Source: a virus. From it: a stretch of DNA of 63,858 bases. The notes beneath the pieces were generated by a model that was given only the letters and a program-made list of their open reading frames with translations, had not been told where the DNA came from and made no database searches. Below are positions 7,783-61,536 of this stretch, piece by piece. Each line of letters opens with the position of its first letter. The stretch's first letter is position 1. A program made the translations under genes and the position numbers. The stretch spans positions 1 through 63,858 of IMG/VR virus record IMGVR_UViG_3300045282_000203; one strand, 5' to 3'.

Positions 7783-8085
7783 TCAGCTCCTCTTCTCGGT
7801 GGTGGTTCGCACAGGCTTCAGCAGCACCGTCTCGCAGTAGTCGAGAGCTTCGGGGAGGAACTTCTTCACGTCCTCGATGGAGCAGCAGGGCCAGGTGTAG
7901 AAGTCTTCTTGATCTGCGGCACCAGCAATGATGAGTGCTTGACCGCCGCCAAAGCTGATGCTGAGCTCCTTACTGATGACGAACTCGGGATCGGTGCAAT
8001 CATAGCGGTTTGCAGGTGTGTAGATGATAGGTGGCCCAACGGCGACGAGCAGGGTGAGCTGCAGGCTCTGCTTGTTGATCCTCAT
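7783..8085 (-). CDS. Hypothetical protein, 100 aa
   Basis: 100 residues from ATG 8085, in TGATG overlap with the upstream stop. Contains ALIIAGAADQEDFYTW and SIEDVKKFLPEAL, a beta-then-helix arrangement similar to its downstream neighbour at 7518. No family recognised. Confidence 0.6.
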   Translation of the reverse strand: MRINKQSLQLTLLVAVGPPIIYTPANRYDCTDPEFVISKELSISFGGGQALIIAGAADQEDFYTWPCCSIEDVKKFLPEALDYCETVLLKPVRTTTEKRS

Positions 8086-8309
8086 CACTGCACCTCCATC
8101 ATAGACTCGATGAGACGCTGACGGCGCTGGTACTCTTCCTGGAGTTCCTTGAAGGAGAAGGTGATGGAGAAGATTGACTTCTCACCGGCAATGAGAAGAA
8201 CTGCCTGTCCGCGCGTTTCTGCATGCTTCATCAGGCTGAAGAGGATGACCTCGGTGGTAGCCTGCAGCCGCTCTTCTCGGGTGGGGTAGACTTTCGTTGT
8301 TTCCTTCAT
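8085..8309 (-). CDS. Hypothetical protein, 74 aa, first gene after the leader
   Basis: 74 residues from ATG 8309 (MKETTKVYPTREER), behind GGAGAATCACC. The upstream in-frame extension to 8402 has no ribosome site. Contains a hydrophobic strand, AVLLIAGEKSIFSITFSF, and a charged C-terminal helix. First gene downstream of a 440-base untranslated stretch and a promoter candidate. Confidence 0.6.
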   Translation of the reverse strand: MKETTKVYPTREERLQATTEVILFSLMKHAETRGQAVLLIAGEKSIFSITFSFKELQEEYQRRQRLIESMMEVQ

Positions 8310-8750
8310 GGTGATTCTCCTTGTGGTGGTGGAGTGGAACGCGCTTGGCTCATCAGCACCGCGGAGCGCGTTGTTGGGTGCGGTGTACCTCTCCTGCCTC
8401 ACGACGGTAGAGGTTTCGCCTGTTCGTGGTAGCTTCGCCTCACGGCGTGCCGGTGATGTCGACTGTTCACGGGTGTGGGATATCTCGTCCCACTGTCGAG
8501 GTTCTTAGTTCAGCGGCCCGCCACCAGGTGTCCGCTTGAGATCTGCGAGTGAAGCGCGTAGGAGGTCACCATCACTCCCCATCGTCATCATCTCACATCT
8601 GATCACTTGTCAAAGTCCTGGTCGCTACCTTCGCTTGGCTCGCACGTCCGCGGGATCTCACCGCGATGCCCTCAAGCGTTGTCAGTATCTCCAAGATCCT
8701 GGGTGCCCTCGAGCCCGCCCAATCAAGCAGCCCACCGGCTACCATGGTCC
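8310..8750 (-). other. Long untranslated leader between promoter candidate and first gene
   Basis: About 440 bases without a convincing gene on either strand. It would be the 5' leader of transcripts starting at the promoter candidate near 8745. One clear hairpin is GTGGGA..TCCCAC at 8475-8493. Two plus-strand open frames (8536-8757 and 8666-8905) lack ribosome sites and run against all neighbours. No tRNA T-arm signature was found. Confidence 0.4.
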
Positions 8751-8780
8751 ATTATAATACTGTGCAAAGAAGAATAGCAA
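8751..8780 (-). promoter_or_regulatory. Candidate sigma70-type leftward promoter
   Basis: Reading the minus strand: TTGCTA (8780-8775) as -35, an 18-base spacer and TATAAT (8756-8751) as -10. It lies upstream of the leader and the coupled genes from 8309 down. The surrounding 70 bases are AT-rich in an otherwise GC-rich genome. A 9-bp-arm palindrome sits 15 bases upstream of the -35. Confidence 0.5.
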
Positions 8781-8794
8781 CTTTTGTTGAATAC

Positions 8795-8820
8795 CTAAGT
8801 GTTGAGGTTGTAACACTTAG
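8795..8820. promoter_or_regulatory. Perfect palindrome, operator-like
   Basis: Arms ctaagtgtt (8795-8803) and aacacttag (8812-8820) surround an 8-base centre. The same 9-base arm occurs at 21521-21529 in the main divergent control region. This fits a binding site for a dimeric regulator such as the phage Cro/CI-like protein (11703-12035), but that link is inferred. Confidence 0.45.
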
Positions 8821-8849
8821 CGTGATAGCCTACTCGCAACTGGCTCTAG

Positions 8850-8870
8850 AAGGCCTACTTACAGGGCCTT
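8850..8870. repeat. Hairpin element shared with the 21.85-kb control region
   Basis: Inverted repeat aaggcc / ggcctt around a 9-base loop. On the minus strand it reads cctgtaagtaggccttc. A near copy, cctgtaagtacaggccttc, lies on the plus strand from 21846. It overlaps the stop codon of the 43-aa gene (8859-8861). It could be a weak hairpin or a regulatory site; no U-tract follows. Confidence 0.4.
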
Positions 8871-8990
8871 GTCATCCTTGCCACACCGTGTGCAGGTCAT
8901 CGTGAAGGTGGGCGCCTGGTATGGGCTGATGTGCAGGTGCACTACGTAGTCCCAGCGATGTCCGAGGAAGAAGCAGATGATCCTCTTCAT
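8859..8990 (-). CDS. 43-aa zinc-knuckle protein, DUF1660-like
   Basis: 43 residues from ATG 8990, overlapping the upstream stop as ATGA. The pattern FLGHRWDY at the N-terminus and a terminal CTRCGKDD resembles small prophage DUF1660-type proteins (a conserved GH-W near the start and one CxxC pair). Probably binds a metal ion or acts as a small adaptor. Function unknown. Confidence 0.55.
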   Translation of the reverse strand: MKRIICFFLGHRWDYVVHLHISPYQAPTFTMTCTRCGKDDKAL

Positions 8991-54302: not shown

Positions 54303-54630
54303 CACAACCTCCTTCGATGATCTTCAGGCTAAGGAACTGACCGAGCAGCACCTCCTTGCGTGAGCCCTTGCTACCCTCCCACCCCGGCGAGAGCACCACG
54401 ACGTCGCGATCCTTGTCGAGACCCCTGATGACGTGAGTACAGTAGTCGAGCGCCTCGTCCCAGCTGAGGTGGTGGGTGTGCATCATGTGGGGTAGCACCG
54501 GCAGGTAGCCTCGCTGAGCTGCCCAGATGGCGGTGATGGCCGCCCGCTTTACGTTCTCGAGGATGACGAGCGGGTCGTCATTGGAGTAGGGTCCGACGAT
54601 GTAGGCCCGCGGGAGAGGTGGTAGGCTCAT
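54286..54630 (-). CDS. DUF4406-like protein (nucleoside 2-deoxyribosyltransferase fold)
   Basis: 114 residues from ATG 54630, ATGA-coupled to dCMP deaminase. RAYIVGPYSNDDPLVILENV and RDVVVLSPGWEGSKGSRKEV match DUF4406-type proteins, whose fold is that of nucleoside 2-deoxyribosyltransferases. HMMHTHHLSWDEALDYC lies between. It may handle nucleosides or nucleotides for the modification genes, but DUF4406 activity is not established. Confidence 0.75.
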   Translation of the reverse strand: MSLPPLPRAYIVGPYSNDDPLVILENVKRAAITAIWAAQRGYLPVLPHMMHTHHLSWDEALDYCTHVIRGLDKDRDVVVLSPGWEGSKGSRKEVLLGQFLSLKIIEGGCDVAAL

Positions 54631-55112
54631 CGTAGCTGCTCCCAGAGACGGCCTGCTGAGACCCACATCTCTTTCGCGTGGGGCTGGGGGTACTCCTCGT
54701 CGAACACGATGCGCTGACAGCTGGTGTTGAGCAGGAGCTTCACGCACGTGATGCAGGGGCTTGTCGTGCAGTAGCACGTGTGCAGTTGGTAGACGTCTCT
54801 GATCTGCAAAAGCGCGTTTTGCTCGGCGTGGATGGCCTCGCACCCATCGAGGTTGGTGCCGCTCGGGCTGCACGCGCCCGGGCAGGCGTGTGGGAACTCG
54901 GGTACATTTCGACCGAGCTTGCGGTTGATGGTAGGTATGGGATCACGCTCGTTGCAGTGAGGCAGCCCTGCCGCGACACCGTTGTACCCGGTTGAAAGCA
55001 CGTGGCCTCGCTCACTCAGTAGCACACAACCCACCGCTCGGCGGAGACAGGTGGAGCGCTTGGCCGTGACCCTGGCGACTTCCATCGCCCAGCTATCTCG
55101 TGAGGACCTCAT
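54627..55112 (-). CDS. dCMP deaminase
   Basis: 161 residues from ATG 55112, ATGA-coupled to the thymidylate-synthase homologue; an earlier ATG lies at 55121. Zinc-site signature HAEQNALLQ (His95, Glu97) and TTSPCITC (Cys120, Cys123). Extra Cys/His in CNERDPIP and HACPGACSPSG suggest a second zinc, as in T4 dCMP deaminase. Converts dCMP to dUMP, feeding ThyX. Together with its neighbour at 55109 it would divide the dCMP pool between dUMP and modified dCMP. Confidence 0.93.
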   Translation of the reverse strand: MRSSRDSWAMEVARVTAKRSTCLRRAVGCVLLSERGHVLSTGYNGVAAGLPHCNERDPIPTINRKLGRNVPEFPHACPGACSPSGTNLDGCEAIHAEQNALLQIRDVYQLHTCYCTTSPCITCVKLLLNTSCQRIVFDEEYPQPHAKEMWVSAGRLWEQLR

Positions 55113-55951
55113 AACCACCACCTCTTCTCCTTGCTCTCACGCAGCTCCTTGAGCAGCTCGATGAGGGCGTCGGGGTCCTGGGCCAGCTCGGGCGGTACCG
55201 GCTGCTGAGGCACGTGCGGGCACCTCTGCTGAGCGTACCCATCATTGAACTTCTTCAGGTCACTCATGATCGCGGTAGCGGCCTCAGCGTTGGTGTCGTA
55301 GAGGTGGCTGCTCACCGTGGTGAGGGCGAGGTGCCCCAGCTTGACTGGCGGGAGCTGGATCACCTGGCTAACACGCTCCTGGTTCACCCGCCCGGCGACG
55401 AGCCAGGCCAGCATGCTGAAGCTGAAGACGTCGTAGGGCAGACCCAACCACACATCAGATGAGCGCATGAACACGTGCACGTTGAGCTCATCCTCTCGGA
55501 TGCTGAACCAGATCGCTACCGTGCAGGGGATGTCACGGGAGGGTGTCGGCATGTCCTTCCAGATGACGAGCCCGGCCTGCCTCGTGCTGGGATCGATGAG
55601 GAGCTTGTCGACGACCCAGGCCAGCTGACTCTTGATCCGGGGGCCGTAGGCGCCGGTGAACTTCGTTCCGTCGTCACTGAACTGGGCGATGTGGGAGTTG
55701 TACGGGGCGATGCCCGCGACGGTGTCGTCCCCCGTGAGGATCCAGAACGCTTCCGCGGCCATGAACGCGTAATTCAGCTTGCGCTGAGGGACGCGGACCA
55801 CCGGCTTGTTCAGGTCGATGAAGAAGGTCTGGTGCAGCAGCTCCTTCGTGCCGAGGTTGCGTGGTGCCGAGCGGGCCCCGGTGTAGAAGATGTTGGCGAG
55901 AGCTCTGAGCCACTCCATGGTGGCATCTTGAGAGATGATGGGTGGGTTCAT
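55109..55951 (-). CDS. Thymidylate-synthase homologue, predicted dCMP hydroxymethylase (or methylase)
   Basis: 280 residues, ATG 55951. ThyA fold with catalytic Cys143 in DIPCTVAIWFSIRED and phosphate-binding RSSD (163-166). Asp174, in VWLGLPYDVFSF, stands where thymidylate synthases have the Asn that selects dUMP. T4 gp42 dCMP hydroxymethylase also has Asp there. The residue after the Cys is Thr, as in gp42, where ThyA has His. The phage has a separate ThyX, so dTMP supply does not need this enzyme. Predicted to make 5-hydroxymethyl-dCMP (or 5-methyl-dCMP). A dUMP activity is less likely because of Asp174. Confidence 0.82.
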   Translation of the reverse strand: MNPPIISQDATMEWLRALANIFYTGARSAPRNLGTKELLHQTFFIDLNKPVVRVPQRKLNYAFMAAEAFWILTGDDTVAGIAPYNSHIAQFSDDGTKFTGAYGPRIKSQLAWVVDKLLIDPSTRQAGLVIWKDMPTPSRDIPCTVAIWFSIREDELNVHVFMRSSDVWLGLPYDVFSFSMLAWLVAGRVNQERVSQVIQLPPVKLGHLALTTVSSHLYDTNAEAATAIMSDLKKFNDGYAQQRCPHVPQQPVPPELAQDPDALIELLKELRESKEKRWWL

Positions 55952-56898
55952 GCGTTCTCCTTCATGCGGGCCTGCTGGATGAGACCGATGAGCGGGTAGG
56001 GCTCGTGGTGATGGAAGCGCTTCGCGTGCTGAGGGTGGTCCACGGTGACGTGGTGGATGTCGAGGGCTGTGAGTCGCTCGTGGGCCTTCTGCCCGAGAGC
56101 GAAGACATGAGGATAGTGGAGACGATCGTCGTTGTCGATCACGAGATCTTCATTGAAGGCCTCAAGCTCATCAGAGTTCACCCAGAGGAGCTCACTCTCT
56201 GGGATGTCTGCCTCAACCAGCTGATCGGTGAGCCACGTGCTGCAGCCCAGCCGAGTCAACGCGGCGAATGGCCACTGGTAGAGAGTGTCACCGTCCTGCC
56301 TCTCTCCGAACTCATCGCCCACGAGAACGATCCTCGCAAGGAGGTTCCCCGCTCCGTGGTGGCTCGTGGACAGGGTGACACCACTCAGAGTTCCACGTCG
56401 CACAAGATCGATCACGGCATCTTTGGTGTAGTCGAACCTGAGCACCTCGAGATCGGTCTGAGACTCGAGACGGTTGTACAGCTCGTAGACCTCGGTGAGC
56501 TGCTTCTCGTTGTCGAGGAGCTCGAGCTGCCTCCGTTCCCTGTAGGTCCGCAGCACCACCTCAAGGGGCGGGAGGCAGAGCACCACGGTGGGGTCGCAGC
56601 GCAGCGCGAGACGCTCGAGGTGACGACGGTAGGTCACGCCCAGGCGGTTCTCCCCACCGCGGAAGACCTTCCCGTAGATGGGCTCGCTGAGCCAGCTGCG
56701 ATCGAGAACCGTGGTGGTGAAGCCGAGGACCGCGGGCAGCATCGACTCGACGTAGAGCCGAGCGAGGCCGCCGCTCACGTTCTTGTAGGGGCCGTGGTGG
56801 ACCACATGTGTGTTGATGCCGGTGACGAGCTTCTTGATCGTGGTTGTCTTCCCACCGCCATCAGGGCCCTCGAAGATGATCAGCTTCTCACTGTCCAC
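55948..56898 (-). CDS. P-loop nucleotide kinase fused to a UDG-fold-like domain
   Basis: 316 residues from GTG 56898 behind GGAGGTGC. Residues 1-175: thymidylate-kinase-like P-loop domain with Walker A EGPDGGGKTT (10-19) and LDRSWLSEPIYG (65-76). Residues about 186-310 look like the uracil-DNA-glycosylase superfamily: IVLVGDEFGERQDG (190-203), WPFAALTRLG, LLWVNSDE (238-245), VFALGQKAHERL (265-276) and VDHPQHAKR (287-295). The kinase could phosphorylate modified dNMPs. The second domain could recognise or process bases. The fusion and its pathway role are inferred; both ends are coupled to neighbours. Confidence 0.72.
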   Translation of the reverse strand: MDSEKLIIFEGPDGGGKTTTIKKLVTGINTHVVHHGPYKNVSGGLARLYVESMLPAVLGFTTTVLDRSWLSEPIYGKVFRGGENRLGVTYRRHLERLALRCDPTVVLCLPPLEVVLRTYRERRQLELLDNEKQLTEVYELYNRLESQTDLEVLRFDYTKDAVIDLVRRGTLSGVTLSTSHHGAGNLLARIVLVGDEFGERQDGDTLYQWPFAALTRLGCSTWLTDQLVEADIPESELLWVNSDELEAFNEDLVIDNDDRLHYPHVFALGQKAHERLTALDIHHVTVDHPQHAKRFHHHEPYPLIGLIQQARMKENA

Positions 56899-57424
56899 CG
56901 TGCACCTCCGTGTGATACACCGCATCATCCGAGCAGAGCGCGTCGTGCACCTCTCCGTTCACCTCGAAGTCGAAGCGTCGGTAGCCCGCGTGCCTCAGCA
57001 ATGCCTCATGACGAGGTGGCACCCAGCCAGCTGGCTTCACCACGTCTACCTGATGACCGCGCTTCCCGATACCGTTGACCTTGCTCATGTTCGCCCGCTG
57101 CACCTCGTCCCAGCCGTCTGACCACATCGCTCGGAGGCCGAGCATCTGTGCGGTGCCCTTGGCGAAGTAGACGAGATCAAGAAGAGCGTCGAACTGGCCC
57201 ACGAGGTCCTGTGAGTCGACGGCGTCCTCGAACTCGTTCAGCTCCTCACGAAGGCAAGCGAGCCGCTCACGGAGCTTGCGGCGGGTGAGGTGCGTGGGTT
57301 CATCATTGAGAAGATGATCGAACTTCTTCTGGAACCGGCGCACGTCCTCCATCTCTGGATCGAGGTGGCCGATGAAGAAGAGCTGGTCCAGCCAGCTGCA
57401 GAGGTTTTCCCAGAGGCTTTTCAT
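56888..57424 (-). CDS. MazG-like nucleotide pyrophosphohydrolase, candidate dCTPase
   Basis: 178 residues from ATG 57424 behind AAAGGAAAG. All-alpha NTP pyrophosphatase core: REELNEFEDAV gives the ExxE pair and QFDALLDLVYFAKGTAQ the DxxD pair, followed by EVQRANMSKV. MazG/HisE-like enzymes split NTPs to NMP and pyrophosphate. In this cluster a dCTP/dCDP-hydrolysing role, as T4 gp56 has, would give dCMP and keep plain cytosine out of DNA; substrate is inferred. The C-terminal 60 residues contain PAGWVPPRHEALL, common in phage members. Confidence 0.82.
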   Translation of the reverse strand: MKSLWENLCSWLDQLFFIGHLDPEMEDVRRFQKKFDHLLNDEPTHLTRRKLRERLACLREELNEFEDAVDSQDLVGQFDALLDLVYFAKGTAQMLGLRAMWSDGWDEVQRANMSKVNGIGKRGHQVDVVKPAGWVPPRHEALLRHAGYRRFDFEVNGEVHDALCSDDAVYHTEVHGGQ

Positions 57425-57468
57425 AAGTTCTTTCCTTTCAGCAAATATAACATTAAACATGTGTTCAG

Positions 57469-57555
57469 TTAGAGGAGATCAGGATGACCCAGGTGGTGGC
57501 CAGGGTCTCTAGCTGCTGACCCACGAACGAGGATCTCGCGATCATCTGGGGTCAT
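57469..57555 (-). CDS. Possible 28-aa mini gene in a short gap
   Basis: The 127-base gap 57425-57551 has a frame starting at ATG 57555, overlapping the glycosyltransferase stop as ATGA and encoding 28 residues (MTPDDREILVRGSAARDP...). A second frame would give a 26-residue hydrophobic peptide. Neither can be confirmed. The rest is AT-rich and supplies the ribosome site for the MazG-like gene. Confidence 0.3.
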   Translation of the reverse strand: MTPDDREILVRGSAARDPGHHLGHPDLL

Positions 57556-58523
57556 CTGGCACCCACCGTCAACCGCTTGTCCCAGGCCTTGAGGACCTCC
57601 TTTCTCAGCAGCTGGTGGTAGCTCTGGTGCCAGGCCTGCTGGGCCTGGAAGATCTTCGAGCGGCGCTTGAGGAAGTACTCGATCTGGTCGACGTCCTCAA
57701 GGACGTAGGGCCTGATGTCGATGCCCACTGCCTCGAACCGCGGCACCGCCTCCTCCTGGAACACCATCGGCAGCCCAGCACCCAGCATCTCGTAGAAGCG
57801 TGCCGCTGGGTTGACGAAGAACCTGACCTCGTCCTGGAGGTAGAGTCCCAGTGAGTAGGCGCCGATCGCGTCAGCGAGCTGATGATGGGGCACAGGTGGC
57901 GCGAGCTGCAGATGCGGGTAGCGCTCCAGCCAGCGCTCATTCTGAGTGGTGTTGGTCATCACCGTCACGTCGGGGCTTTCAGCAGAGAAGAAGCGATCAA
58001 ACGTCTTCACCCGCCCGGTGCGCATGGCCCCGTAGTAGAGGAGGTTGCGGACCTTGGGGCGCTGCGGGGTGATCCTGTTGTAGAACAGGTAGTCCCAGTG
58101 GATCAGCTTGCTGAACTCCGAGCGCTCCGTGTAGTGGGGCACCGTCGTCCAGAAGTCGAGGTTGAGACCGCGGTCGAGTGCCTCCCTGATGGCGACGAGG
58201 ACAGGGCTGGCTGAGGACTTCGTGTTGTGGCTCGGCTTCTCCAGGTGGTAGTCGTTCACCACCCAGATGACCTGCTTCGCCTTGCGGATGACGGCGGCGA
58301 GTTCCTGCTGGGCGTGACAGTGATGCATGAGCCCGTTGATGACGAAGAGGGTGTCTGGCTGGTAGGCCAGGAGCTCTTCACCTCCTCGCCTCCCGGTAGC
58401 CTTGTTCTTGCTGTCACCCCAGACGGGGATCTTCAGGGTCTCGCTGAGGAACAGCGCGAGGAGGCTGTTGCAGTTGATCGCGCCCTCATTGAGGGCTGTC
58501 AGGTTGAAGACTGCGACTTTCAT
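57552..58523 (-). CDS. Glycosyltransferase, GT-B-like, candidate DNA-base glycosylation enzyme
   Basis: 323 residues, ATG 58523 in ATGA overlap with the methyltransferase gene. N-terminal Rossmann-like half (VFNLTALNEGAINCNSLLAL, DTLFVINGLMHHCHAQ, QVIWVVNDYHLEKPS). The C-terminal half has the GT-B donor-site pattern: GAYSLGLYLQ, then NPAARFYEMLGAGLPMVFQ with a conserved Glu. Phage enzymes of this fold include T4 glucosyltransferases that modify hydroxymethylcytosine. The gene sits between C5 methyltransferase and MazG/kinase/hydroxymethylase-like genes, so DNA is a likely acceptor. The sugar donor is unknown; a protein or glycan acceptor cannot be excluded. Confidence 0.72.
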   Translation of the reverse strand: MKVAVFNLTALNEGAINCNSLLALFLSETLKIPVWGDSKNKATGRRGGEELLAYQPDTLFVINGLMHHCHAQQELAAVIRKAKQVIWVVNDYHLEKPSHNTKSSASPVLVAIREALDRGLNLDFWTTVPHYTERSEFSKLIHWDYLFYNRITPQRPKVRNLLYYGAMRTGRVKTFDRFFSAESPDVTVMTNTTQNERWLERYPHLQLAPPVPHHQLADAIGAYSLGLYLQDEVRFFVNPAARFYEMLGAGLPMVFQEEAVPRFEAVGIDIRPYVLEDVDQIEYFLKRRSKIFQAQQAWHQSYHQLLRKEVLKAWDKRLTVGAR

Positions 58524-59551
58524 AGGTCCTCCTCTTCGATGGTGGGTGACAAGATCTTCACGAGACGGTACTTGGGATCACCTCGCAGAGGTGGCTTGAT
58601 GAGACCGCCCTTGACGGCATTGGCCAACCACTCACCCGCGGGGGCGAGGACAGTACGCGAGAGCAGCCCACTGATCGCGCCCAGCTTGTCAGATTCGATC
58701 TTCCAGGTCTTCGGCAGGCCGCTAATCGCGAGCATCTCCTTGTACGAGAGACGACGTGGTTCGTCGTAGTGACGGCAGGAGCCTGGGAAGAACACCCCGC
58801 AGATCTCGTCGGGTCTGAAGCGCTTGGCCAGCCAGTTCGGTTTGCAGGTGATTTTCTTCTGCTGGGCGGCGGGGAGACTGCGATACGCCTCTGAGTACTT
58901 GTAGTGGTGCTTGGGGCAGATCTTCCAGAGGAAGATGTCACCGTCCGTCTCCGACCACTTCTCTGCTGGCTTCACCTTGATGCTCTTCAGCAGGCTCCCC
59001 ACCGTCGGGTGCTTGGTCACCACCTTGGGCCACACGAGTGGGTGCTGGTGGGCGATGAAGAACATGCGCTTGCGATGCTGAGGCGCACCGAGGTAGAGGT
59101 TGTTCTGGATGAGCACCGTGACGTGGTAGCCGCGATCCATCCACAGCTTGGCCTTCTTGTCGACGAAGTTCCTGCCCTTTCCCCACGCCTGGGTGACGGA
59201 CTCCCAGACGAAGGTCTTGGTCTTCATCCTGAGGCCGGCATCCATGAGGCTCTCCACGCAGTCGAGGCGAGGATCAACGTCCCACGTGTGGGCTCGGCCG
59301 GCTGAGAGGGTGGACCAGGGCGCGCAGGGCGGGTTGCTGTAGAGAAGATCGACCTTGCCGAAACTGTCGGCAGCCCAGTTCTCCTTCCCGATGCGGATGT
59401 CGAGGTGTGGGAAGTTGAGCTTCGCTGTCTTCACCCCGTACGCCACGTGCTCGAGGTGCACATCGACCTCGAACCCCGCCTTCATGACGCCGTGGGTGAA
59501 GGCGCCGGCGAAGCAGTCACCGCCGACTGCAACGAACCTTGATCTGACCAT
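58520..59551 (-). CDS. C5-cytosine DNA methyltransferase
   Basis: 343 residues, ATG 59551 behind AAGGAGAC. Motifs in canonical order: I (GGDCFAGAFTHGVMKAGFEV), IV (SNPPCAPWS, catalytic Cys76), VI (FVWESVTQ, with Ser where ENV is usual), VIII (GAPQHRKRMFFIA) and late X (LANAVKGG). It transfers a methyl group to cytosine C5 at an unknown target. If phage DNA already carries hydroxymethylcytosine, this enzyme would lack substrate there, so it may act on a subset of sites or have changed chemistry. Coupled to the glycosyltransferase. Confidence 0.88.
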   Translation of the reverse strand: MVRSRFVAVGGDCFAGAFTHGVMKAGFEVDVHLEHVAYGVKTAKLNFPHLDIRIGKENWAADSFGKVDLLYSNPPCAPWSTLSAGRAHTWDVDPRLDCVESLMDAGLRMKTKTFVWESVTQAWGKGRNFVDKKAKLWMDRGYHVTVLIQNNLYLGAPQHRKRMFFIAHQHPLVWPKVVTKHPTVGSLLKSIKVKPAEKWSETDGDIFLWKICPKHHYKYSEAYRSLPAAQQKKITCKPNWLAKRFRPDEICGVFFPGSCRHYDEPRRLSYKEMLAISGLPKTWKIESDKLGAISGLLSRTVLAPAGEWLANAVKGGLIKPPLRGDPKYRLVKILSPTIEEEDL

Positions 59552-59576: not shown

Positions 59577-61058
59577 TCAGGCTGCGCGCCTACGGTGCTT
59601 GGCGAGGTTGAGAAGTGCGGTGAAGAGCTTCTGCTGACCACCTTCTTTCTCAGTGAGCGTAGGCATCATCACAAGATCTTCGACGGTGTCACGCATGAGG
59701 AGACGGTGGATCATCGTGTGCTTCCTGGTATTGCCGGAGCGGATGACCCGGCTGTTGAACTGATCGTAGAGGTCCTGGTCCCACGTGGGTGTGTGCCAGC
59801 AGAGATCAGCCTCGCACCCCTGGAGGTTGAGACCGGTGCCGATGGACTGGGGATGACCGAACATCACTGGGACGTCGCCGGCGTTCCACTTGTCTTCTAC
59901 CTTGGTGTAGTCCTTGTCCTTTACGTCACTGATGAACACCGCCTTCGGGAACCTCTTCTTGAGACGATCGACGTCGTGGTGGAAGTCGTAAGCGACGAGA
60001 AGTGGGCGGTGCTGCATCTCATCAATGAGGTCCTCCAGGGCGTCGGTCTTCTGATCGTGGATGTTGATCCACTCTCGCTTCCGCATCTTCAGGTTGATGC
60101 TCAGAGTCTTCACCACCTCGGGGTCGAGGTAGATCCCACCTGAGCAGATCTGACGACACTTCACACTCTTGGCGCCAGCTGTCCCAGCCTTCACGAGATT
60201 GCCGTTGATCTCAGCGATCATGAGAGCTTCCATCTCCTCATAGATGCGACGGTAATCTTCATCGAAGTCGATGAGGATGTCGTTCTCGACCCGCTCGGGG
60301 AGGTCGATCTCTGAGCTCGGGACGTGCATCATGAGGTGGGAGAGCTTCTCATAGATGCGCTCCTCAGCGTCGAGCTTAGGCACGAGCTCGTAGGGCCCCA
60401 CCTGATCAAAGAACTCTCTCCGGAAGTACGTGATGTACTGGCCGAGAGCGTTACCCATGTCGAGGACGTAGGTCTCTCCGAAGAGATCTTCGAGACCGTT
60501 CGACCCCGCGCTGCCGGTGAGACCCCATCGTCGCCCGAAGGTGTGGAGGATCGTCTTGAGGGTCTTGAAGCGGAGTGAGGTAGTGTGCTTGAACTTCTGC
60601 AGCTCATCCACGACGAGAAGATCGAAGCCGAGCTTCTTGAAGGCGCGGACATCGACATCGACGTAGGACTTGTTCTTCGCATCCTTGGTGACGGTGGGAC
60701 CAAGAAGCCACTGCAGCCCCTCAGGGGTGATCGTGTAGATGTCCGCGTCGCGGCGCAATGCCTTCTCACGGTCCTTGCCGTGGAGGATCTCAACCTTGAG
60801 ATGCTTGAAGTCCTCCCACTTCGCCACCTCGCCCGGCCAGACCGCGTAGCACGGCCGCTTCGGAGCGATGACGAGGACCTTGTGAACGAGGCCCTGCTTC
60901 TTGAGGAGACTGATGGCGGCGAGGGTCGTGCTGGTCTTGCGGAGTCCCGGCTTGAACAGGAGTCCAGCGCAAGCGTGTGATAGGAGGAACTTCATTCCTC
61001 TCTTCTGGAACTTCGCGGGCTTCCACTTCTGGGGTGGCTTCTTGATCAGGTCATTCAT
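59577..61058 (-). CDS. SNF2-like DEAD/DEAH-type helicase
   Basis: 493 residues from ATG 61058 (MNDLIKKPPQKWKPA), behind GGAGATTTC. Motif I is FKPGLRKTSTTLA, with Arg in place of Gly before Lys-Thr. Motif Ia is VLVIAPKRP, motif II VVDELQKFK (DELQ), motif III LTGSAGSNGLEDLFG. C-terminal RecA domain: PLLVAYDFHHDVDRLKKRFP, SIGTGLNLQGCEADLCWH, and NSRVIRSGNTRKHTMIH (motif VI). Likely remodels DNA or drives branch migration in replication or recombination. Confidence 0.88.
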   Translation of the reverse strand: MNDLIKKPPQKWKPAKFQKRGMKFLLSHACAGLLFKPGLRKTSTTLAAISLLKKQGLVHKVLVIAPKRPCYAVWPGEVAKWEDFKHLKVEILHGKDREKALRRDADIYTITPEGLQWLLGPTVTKDAKNKSYVDVDVRAFKKLGFDLLVVDELQKFKHTTSLRFKTLKTILHTFGRRWGLTGSAGSNGLEDLFGETYVLDMGNALGQYITYFRREFFDQVGPYELVPKLDAEERIYEKLSHLMMHVPSSEIDLPERVENDILIDFDEDYRRIYEEMEALMIAEINGNLVKAGTAGAKSVKCRQICSGGIYLDPEVVKTLSINLKMRKREWINIHDQKTDALEDLIDEMQHRPLLVAYDFHHDVDRLKKRFPKAVFISDVKDKDYTKVEDKWNAGDVPVMFGHPQSIGTGLNLQGCEADLCWHTPTWDQDLYDQFNSRVIRSGNTRKHTMIHRLLMRDTVEDLVMMPTLTEKEGGQQKLFTALLNLAKHRRRAA

Positions 61059-61536
61059 GAAATCTCCATCGACGTTTTGCAGATTCACTCATCTTTCTTT
61101 TTGTTGCATCAGAATGTTTCCGTCCCAGTCCAGCATTTCTCACCTTCTCCCGTGTTTCTAAGGAGAGTGTTGTCCCTAATCTAGCATTTCGGATTTTCTT
61201 CTTAGACTCTGTTGAATGTTTTCTTCCAAGCCACGTTTGTCTTATCTTCTCTCGCCCCTCTTTTGACAATCTCGATTTTAGTCGTCCCTTCTCTGAAGCA
61301 TCCCACATGTTATCTTTGCAAGTGCCGAGAAAGTGATGCTCATCTCTGATGCACCGTGGGTTATCACATGTATGACAGACGAAGATCTTACTTGAGGCAA
61401 TAGGTCCGTGACGCATCTGATAAAGACGACGCGAAACCCCATTTGCAGTTGTATCACATTGAGCCGGACGGACTAAGCATTTGCCCTCCCAATGAGATTC
61501 ATTTTCGTAATCCTGAATTGTTTTTCTTCGTCCCAT
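61051..61536 (-). CDS. HNH homing-type endonuclease with NUMOD3 repeats
   Basis: 161 residues from ATG 61536, behind GGAGGAGGC. HNH core (about 54-76): CHTCDNPRCIRDEHHFLGT and CKDNMWD. The C-terminal third has repeated NUMOD3-type DNA-contact units (SKEGREKIRQTWLGRKHS, SLETREKVRNAGLGRKHS). Free-standing homing endonucleases spread into related phage genomes. AT content is clearly higher than in neighbours, supporting recent acquisition together with the VRR-NUC gene. It overlaps the VRR-NUC stop by 38 bases. Confidence 0.88.
   Translation of the reverse strand: MGRRKTIQDYENESHWEGKCLVRPAQCDTTANGVSRRLYQMRHGPIASSKIFVCHTCDNPRCIRDEHHFLGTCKDNMWDASEKGRLKSRLSKEGREKIRQTWLGRKHSTESKKKIRNARLGTTLSLETREKVRNAGLGRKHSDATKRKMSESAKRRWRFHE

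Follow-up and report, generated by a model that had tools for sequence, protein, structure and literature searches.

Fusion of a thymidylate-kinase-fold domain to a domain of the uracil-DNA glycosylase superfamily

In a stretch of viral DNA of 63,858 nucleotides (positions 1 to 63,858 of IMG/VR record IMGVR_UViG_3300045282_000203, henceforth the window) we have identified a single gene that encodes a thymidylate-kinase-fold domain followed by a domain of the uracil-DNA glycosylase (UDG) superfamily. This kinase-UDG fusion is real, recurs in phage cytosine-modification operons and is apparently undescribed, no such fusion having been found in the open-access literature. It is not categorically new, since both folds and the pathway are already known; what is new is the combination of domains within known superfamilies. 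As far as architecture and fold alone are concerned, the assignment of the two domains is practically certain.

The gene (55948..56898, minus strand) is one uninterrupted in-frame ORF that encodes 316 amino acids from a GTG at 56898, a start that agrees with the residue numbering of an earlier note on this DNA; starting instead at the ATG further upstream (56928) would lengthen the protein by 10 residues, to 326 amino acids. The ORF and all motifs quoted in that note were recovered in frame and in place. AlphaFold2, run with a 61-sequence alignment, modelled the whole protein with a mean pLDDT of 93.0 and a pTM of 0.92.

The N-terminal half (residues about 1–170, 56389..56898, minus strand) has the fold of thymidylate kinases (TMK), with a P-loop and a DR motif, as seen with VIA, Foldseek and phrog_761 (E 2e-15). 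It was closest in VIA to YorR of SPbeta (3kb2, Z 14.4) and to TMK (4s35, Z 13.9), with rmsd values of 3.2–3.3 Å over 163 residues, and Foldseek matched TMK at E 2e-7. The key residues of the P-loop GPDGGGKT (residues 11–18, 56845..56868, minus strand) are invariant or nearly so among 84 aligned sequences, in which K17, D66 and R67 never vary. Nevertheless, the window protein scores below the curated dTMP-kinase cut-offs (22.1 versus 27 bits for PF02223, 28.1 versus 83.25 bits for TIGR00041).

Searches of Pfam, PHROGs, NCBIfam and PDB sequences with the single window protein matched only this kinase half, and kinases also filled the fold search with the whole model, so the C-terminal half (residues about 184–316, 55951..56349, minus strand) was modelled alone (pLDDT 81.7, pTM 0.77). 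All 34 PDB chains that Foldseek returned for it at E<=0.001 were type-4 UDGs or UdgX. Type-4 UDGs also came top in VIA (4zbx, Z 11.1, 131 aligned residues, rmsd 3.6), followed by UdgX (Z about 10), 9qhs (9.0), SMUG2 (9.0), and SMUG1 and vaccinia UDG (7–8); nearly all of the top 50 rows were UDG-superfamily entries. The earlier note had proposed the pairing of a kinase with a UDG-like domain, a proposal that would have fallen had the predicted C-terminal structure departed from the UDG fold; the predicted structure matched that fold in Foldseek and VIA alike. The 9qhs entry is a chain of a phage family-A polymerase, and UDG-like folds seem to occur inside other phage family-A DNA polymerases as well (A0A6J5MU99 and A0A127AW86 in BFVD, the latter the polymerase of SP-15, a phage with hypermodified DNA).

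Pfam UDG (PF03167) did not match the window protein, so that an ordinary family search with this protein alone would miss its second half. Among 40 relatives, 11 matched PF03167 weakly, the best of the matches listed reaching 21.2 bits for a cut-off of 24.3. A profile built from 40 of the C-terminal domains had type-4 UDGs or UdgX as its top 25 PDB matches, though at E values of only 0.016–0.08. With a small profile the top PDB match was a designed TIM barrel, which we took as an artefact, the match consisting of weak stretches of one repeated unit. The UDG half is thus detectable only through a profile, through structure or through the relative in phage G described below, given that single-sequence searches saw the kinase half alone. 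The four cysteines of the type-4 Fe-S site were not found: the window domain has one Cys, and 33 of 35 sequences of its group (group A, see below) have three or fewer. Likewise, the segment that would correspond to the UdgX KRRIH loop with its nucleophilic His is absent from the alignment between N241 and the ALG motif. The second domain is therefore a member of the UDG superfamily that belongs to neither type 4 nor UdgX.

Relatives in phages and the gp315 protein of Bacillus phage G

A scan of IMG/VR with the single protein found nothing, whereas an alignment and profile scan returned at least 308 relatives, of which 80 were kept. Full-length homologues are present in phages AXL3, PW916 and ctUtU524, and a diverged one in DSL-LC01. 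Altogether, 84 loci with the fusion were fetched, 34 of them window-like (group A, with HPQxxKRF) and 50 of a second type (group B, with LPPPLxHMQ); clustering at 90% identity leaves 32 and 28 clusters respectively. The alignment used for counting also has 84 rows, namely the window plus 34 group A sequences (together the 35 of group A) and 49 of group B, and locus L032 was counted as group B-like. One scan of bacterial genomes gave no convincing homologue, only four weak matches to the kinase half among the matches listed. The fusion gene is left without annotation in ctUtU524 (MW202621.1; about 7992–8909 of locus L002) and PW916 (OL960029.1; L003:2319–3299). Just before the fusion in two group B loci (L034:7111–8001 and L032:2794–3693) we noticed a similar ORF of about 300 amino acids beginning M(K/N)ILITGVTETH; on visual inspection it looks similar to ORFs of L027 and L039, and it had no convincing Pfam match.

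The decisive sequence link between the fusion family and the UDG superfamily is gp315 of Bacillus phage G, which was reached both through a BFVD fold match and through its neighbour gp319. This protein of 331 amino acids has the kinase and then the UDG domain, as in the window, and passes both Pfam cut-offs (Thymidylate_kin 28.9 bits for a cut-off of 27; UDG 48.2 bits, E 1.5e-12, for a cut-off of 24.3); phmmer matched it to Thermotoga maritima UDG at E 8e-5. It aligns lengthwise with the window family, sharing HPxYxKRF, and pairwise similarity is detectable to the family member of DSL-LC01. The pairing that the earlier note had put forward is thereby borne out by sequence as well as by the fold of the isolated domain. 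The annotation of gp315 is thymidylate kinase, with no mention of the UDG domain. Around it, phage G carries a dCMP deaminase, a thymidylate synthase (TS)-family gene with the same Asp as in the window (see below) and a DNA alpha-glucosyltransferase, gp313 (PF11440, E 3e-9).

Pocket residues and decay of the second domain

In the alignment to type-4 UDGs and UdgX, D195 falls on UdgX E52, F211 on the base-stacking Phe, N241 on the base-edge-reading Asn, H288 on the His of the HPS motif and R294, six residues further on, on UdgX R184. The acid, His and Arg have established roles in UDG pockets, and usual forms of UDG motif 1 carry a Pro (GExPG). The roles of the stacking Phe and the base-edge Asn are described in PMC11078745. 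In the window the motif 1 position reads GDEFGE (residues 194–199, 56302..56319, minus strand), in which the acid is kept and Phe replaces the Pro, a substitution shared by 27 of the 35 group A sequences, so that GxxP(G) is absent. The stacking Phe lies in a PF pair (210–211, 56266..56271, minus strand) and the base-edge Asn in VNSD (240–243, 56170..56181, minus strand); FALGQKA follows at residues 266–272. Lastly, HPQHAKRF (288–295, 56014..56037, minus strand) provides the His of the UDG HPS..R motif and, at +6, its Arg, as indicated by conservation and by a weak segment of alignment with HPSYLLR of T. maritima UDG.

These motif columns are conserved among relatives that average 43% identity which, together with the UDG fold of the isolated model and the phage G fusion above the Pfam UDG cut-off, places the motifs beyond chance. 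The whole set (acid 195, Phe 211, Asn 241, His 288, Arg 294) is complete in 27 of the 35 group A sequences, with F211, N241 and H288 individually present in 33, 34 and 33. Group B retains the acid, Phe and Asn in all 49 sequences, bringing Asn at the base-edge position to 83 of 84, but His 288 is replaced there by Pro and Arg 294 by Gln, which makes ordinary base excision unlikely in these proteins. Activity cannot be assumed for the family at large, with motif 1 lacking its usual Pro and one large clade lacking the His. In a tree of the kinase half, group B forms one branch adjoined by two HPQ-bearing sequences, and the loss of the His therefore looks derived, tentatively so in view of rooting and long branches.

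Identity to the window also differs between the two halves. In two group B proteins it amounts to 43–45% for the kinase half and 16–22% for the UDG half, and the DSL-LC01 protein shows the reverse (23% and 31%). In the jumbo contig L096 the UDG half is truncated, with a deaminase and a TS-family gene alongside, and the kinases of ct3Et533 and Pelagibacter phage HTVC200P (187 and 157 amino acids) have no UDG half at all, though they adjoin a TS-family gene with the same Asp. To judge from these sequences, the UDG domain looks intact in the group of the window, altered in phage G and degenerate in a large aquatic-type clade and in one jumbo phage; it is absent from two kinases of equivalent operons. 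Since some relatives lack the second domain or carry it in decayed form, it is apparently accessory and not needed everywhere, albeit conserved in those proteins of group A and of the phage G type that retain it. The idea that its integrity tracks the presence of dCMP deaminase fits groups A and B (a contrast that amounts to one split in the tree), phage G, L095 and HTVC200P; ct3Et533 and L096 contradict it, and it was rejected. The dCMP deaminase ORF of L096 (L096:5693–6649, a 504-kb phage contig) has an apparent intein-like insert (CLTGDNYV ... VHNC).

A probable hydroxymethylcytosine operon

The fusion gene adjoins a TS-family gene (55109..55951, minus strand), predicted to encode a dCMP hydroxymethylase, which is followed by a dCMP deaminase gene (54627..55121, minus strand; PF00383 E 1e-18, phrog_174 E 2e-35). 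On its other side lies a MazG-like/PRA-PH NTP pyrophosphohydrolase (56888..57460, minus strand; PF01503 E 4e-13), a candidate for the removal of dCTP. A change from Asn to Asp at the position of Escherichia coli ThyA N177 is the mark of dCMP hydroxymethylases. TS-family genes were found in 83 of the 84 fusion loci, mostly directly after the fusion gene, and their products have this Asp in all 81 scorable cases, and the catalytic Cys (C146) in every scorable sequence; the TS-family protein of PaMx11, by contrast, has Asn. The best PDB match of the window's TS-family protein, which has this Asp, was the CMP hydroxymethylase MilA. Group A loci commonly also have the dCMP deaminase (30 of 34), the MazG-like NTPase (29 of 34) and a small methyltransferase (27 of 34), and group B loci, within the DNA fetched, have MazG in about half of the cases and no deaminase. 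For AXL3, whose genome encodes a separate ThyX-type enzyme, 35 of 37 restriction enzymes failed to cut the phage DNA, and the two that cut it have A/T-only sites (PMC7504290). A hydroxymethylcytosine setting for the fusion is thus highly probable, and the cytosine-modification context suggested in the earlier note is upheld by the TS-family Asp, the MilA match and the glucosyltransferase cluster of phage G.

Just upstream of the MazG gene (57552–59551) are genes for a weakly glycosyltransferase-like protein (57552..58523, minus strand; PF13524 E 0.0066, below the cut-off), a candidate for modifying the hydroxymethyl group, and for a C5-cytosine methyltransferase-family protein (58520..59551, minus strand; PF00145 E 2e-18). 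Their place is taken by the small SAM methyltransferase in the 27 relatives mentioned above; homologues of the C5 enzyme are present in five other group A loci. A C5 methyltransferase is odd in a hydroxymethylcytosine phage. Near the helicase gene of the window, the ORF at 61051–61536 combines an HNH-like motif with short repeats in its C-terminal part and looks like a homing endonuclease gene.

Possible roles of the fusion

From the neighbouring hydroxymethylase-like gene we infer, with good reason, that the kinase half acts on hydroxymethyl-dCMP. In the pathway that we propose, the MazG-like enzyme would remove dCTP, the TS-family enzyme would convert dCMP to hydroxymethyl-dCMP, the N-terminal domain of the fusion would phosphorylate this to hydroxymethyl-dCDP and the host NDK would complete the triphosphate, a sugar or other group being presumably added later. 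The reduced UDG domain would most likely flip uracil-type bases out of DNA and excise them, close to the site where the modified nucleotide is used; its targets might be uracil, or hydroxymethyluracil arising by deamination or by promiscuous phosphorylation of dUMP or hydroxymethyl-dUMP. Taken as a whole, this chain, a hydroxymethylcytosine-pathway kinase with an accessory module for DNA-directed recognition or removal of uracil-type bases, is put forward tentatively, at somewhat less than an even chance.

The uracil-type preference is suggested by the Asn at the reading position, as opposed to the acidic pocket residues of Brig1 and Brig3, two UDG-superfamily enzymes that act on modified phage DNA; Brig1 has Glu (E147) at the base-edge position (PMC11078745) and Brig3 an essential D127 (PMC13160076). 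Against such a preference, it is not obvious why a hydroxymethylcytosine phage should need uracil recognition in particular. Removal of mis-inserted bases by the UDG half, which the earlier note had raised, is possible with most UDG pocket residues kept; its suggestion of base transfer in DNA found no support.

Alternatively, the UDG-fold domain may lack glycosylase activity and work purely in DNA scanning or docking, thereby coupling nucleotide synthesis to the replisome. This is rather unlikely, albeit a serious competitor. In its favour, the Pro is gone from motif 1 in most members and the His and Arg from all of group B, the D4 UDG of vaccinia plays a part in the polymerase holoenzyme and in replication that does not depend on catalysis (PMC1936997), and the domain model is also matched, at the level of whole chains, by 9qhs and by predicted phage polymerases. 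Yet docking would not need the full pocket that most of group A retains, nor the HP, Arg and Asn that gp315 has kept. A purely DNA-binding role is nearly as likely as removal of uracil or hydroxymethyluracil in cis. The latter would make sense because a TMK-type enzyme could phosphorylate dUMP or hydroxymethyl-dUMP, and in its fuller form, a self-correcting kinase whose editing domain clears the wrong pyrimidine (uracil or hydroxymethyluracil) from the pool of nucleotides or from DNA at the replication fork, it has an unlikely but appreciable chance of being right; if true, it would mean that cytosine replacement is kept faithful.

Editing restricted to free nucleotides, with the domain binding or hydrolysing dUMP, hydroxymethyl-dUMP or their diphosphates, is improbable. 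The fusion to a nucleotide kinase, the crystal structure of UdgX with dUMP (6ajp) and an adjoining deaminase able to create dUMP or hydroxymethyl-dUMP are in its favour, but HPQxxKRF maps to the loop that UDGs insert into DNA, the deaminase and an intact UDG half do not go together in ct3Et533 or L096, and hydrolysis of free nucleotides is not known to us from any UDG. Still less probable is an attack on cytosine or modified cytosine in host or rival-phage DNA, for which Brig1 and Brig3 set a precedent in host defence by excising glucosyl-hydroxymethylcytosine and hydroxymethylcytosine (PMC11078745, PMC13160076): their pocket residues are acidic where nearly all of our sequences have Asn, and excision of hydroxymethylcytosine would hit the phage's own DNA. 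That the TS-family neighbour makes hydroxymethyl-dUMP, so that thymine rather than cytosine is modified, is very improbable, since a PW916 gene annotated as deoxyuridylate hydroxymethyltransferase is set against the Asp in every scorable relative, the Asn of PaMx11 and the cutting of AXL3 DNA solely at A/T-only sites (PMC7504290).

Under the reading that we prefer, the recurrence of the fusion beside a predicted hydroxymethylcytosine gene suggests a modified-DNA pathway with an attached base-sensing or base-removing domain. More than 80 phage contigs, and the classic jumbo phage G besides, carry the fusion, which has been annotated solely as thymidylate kinase; by its sequence it marks probable hydroxymethylcytosine phages, and it connects the synthesis of modified nucleotides with a fold known from DNA repair. 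Should the domain be active, cytosine-replacing phages carry a dedicated base-quality step; if inactive, it would be a further case, after the poxviruses, of a UDG turned replication factor.

Comparison with known systems

Among the nearest described relatives are the full-length homologues of the Stenotrophomonas and Pseudoxanthomonas phages AXL3 (gp29) and PW916, about 42% identical and in the same operon, in which a small SAM methyltransferase stands where the window has its glycosyltransferase-like and C5-methyltransferase genes. The gp315 protein of phage G is far diverged and nearer to ordinary UDGs (NPG in motif 1, TNLVP, HPAYVKRF), without the PF pair. In T4, hydroxymethylcytosine is made by the gp56 dCTPase, the gp42 hydroxymethylase, the gp1 kinase and a dCMP deaminase; the same set of reactions is predicted here from a different set of genes, and the T4 kinase has no UDG domain.

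Type-4 UDGs (Sulfolobus tokodaii 4zbx, Thermus thermophilus 1ui0, T. maritima 1vk2) share the fold (Z 10.5–11.1) and the Phe, Asn, HP and Arg positions with the window domain, which differs in its size (about 130 versus about 190 residues), in having neither the four-cysteine Fe-S site nor the Pro of motif 1, and in its fusion to a kinase. UdgX of Mycobacterium smegmatis has the same fold, with the acid at E52 and the Arg at R184, but its KRRIH-type loop with His109 is missing from the window domain. Brig1 and Brig3 combine the UDG superfamily with a modified-cytosine setting, as the window does, but they are host defence proteins without a kinase half, and their acidic pocket residue corresponds to Asn in the window, an equivalence drawn through the type-4 UDG alignment rather than a direct alignment to the Brig proteins.
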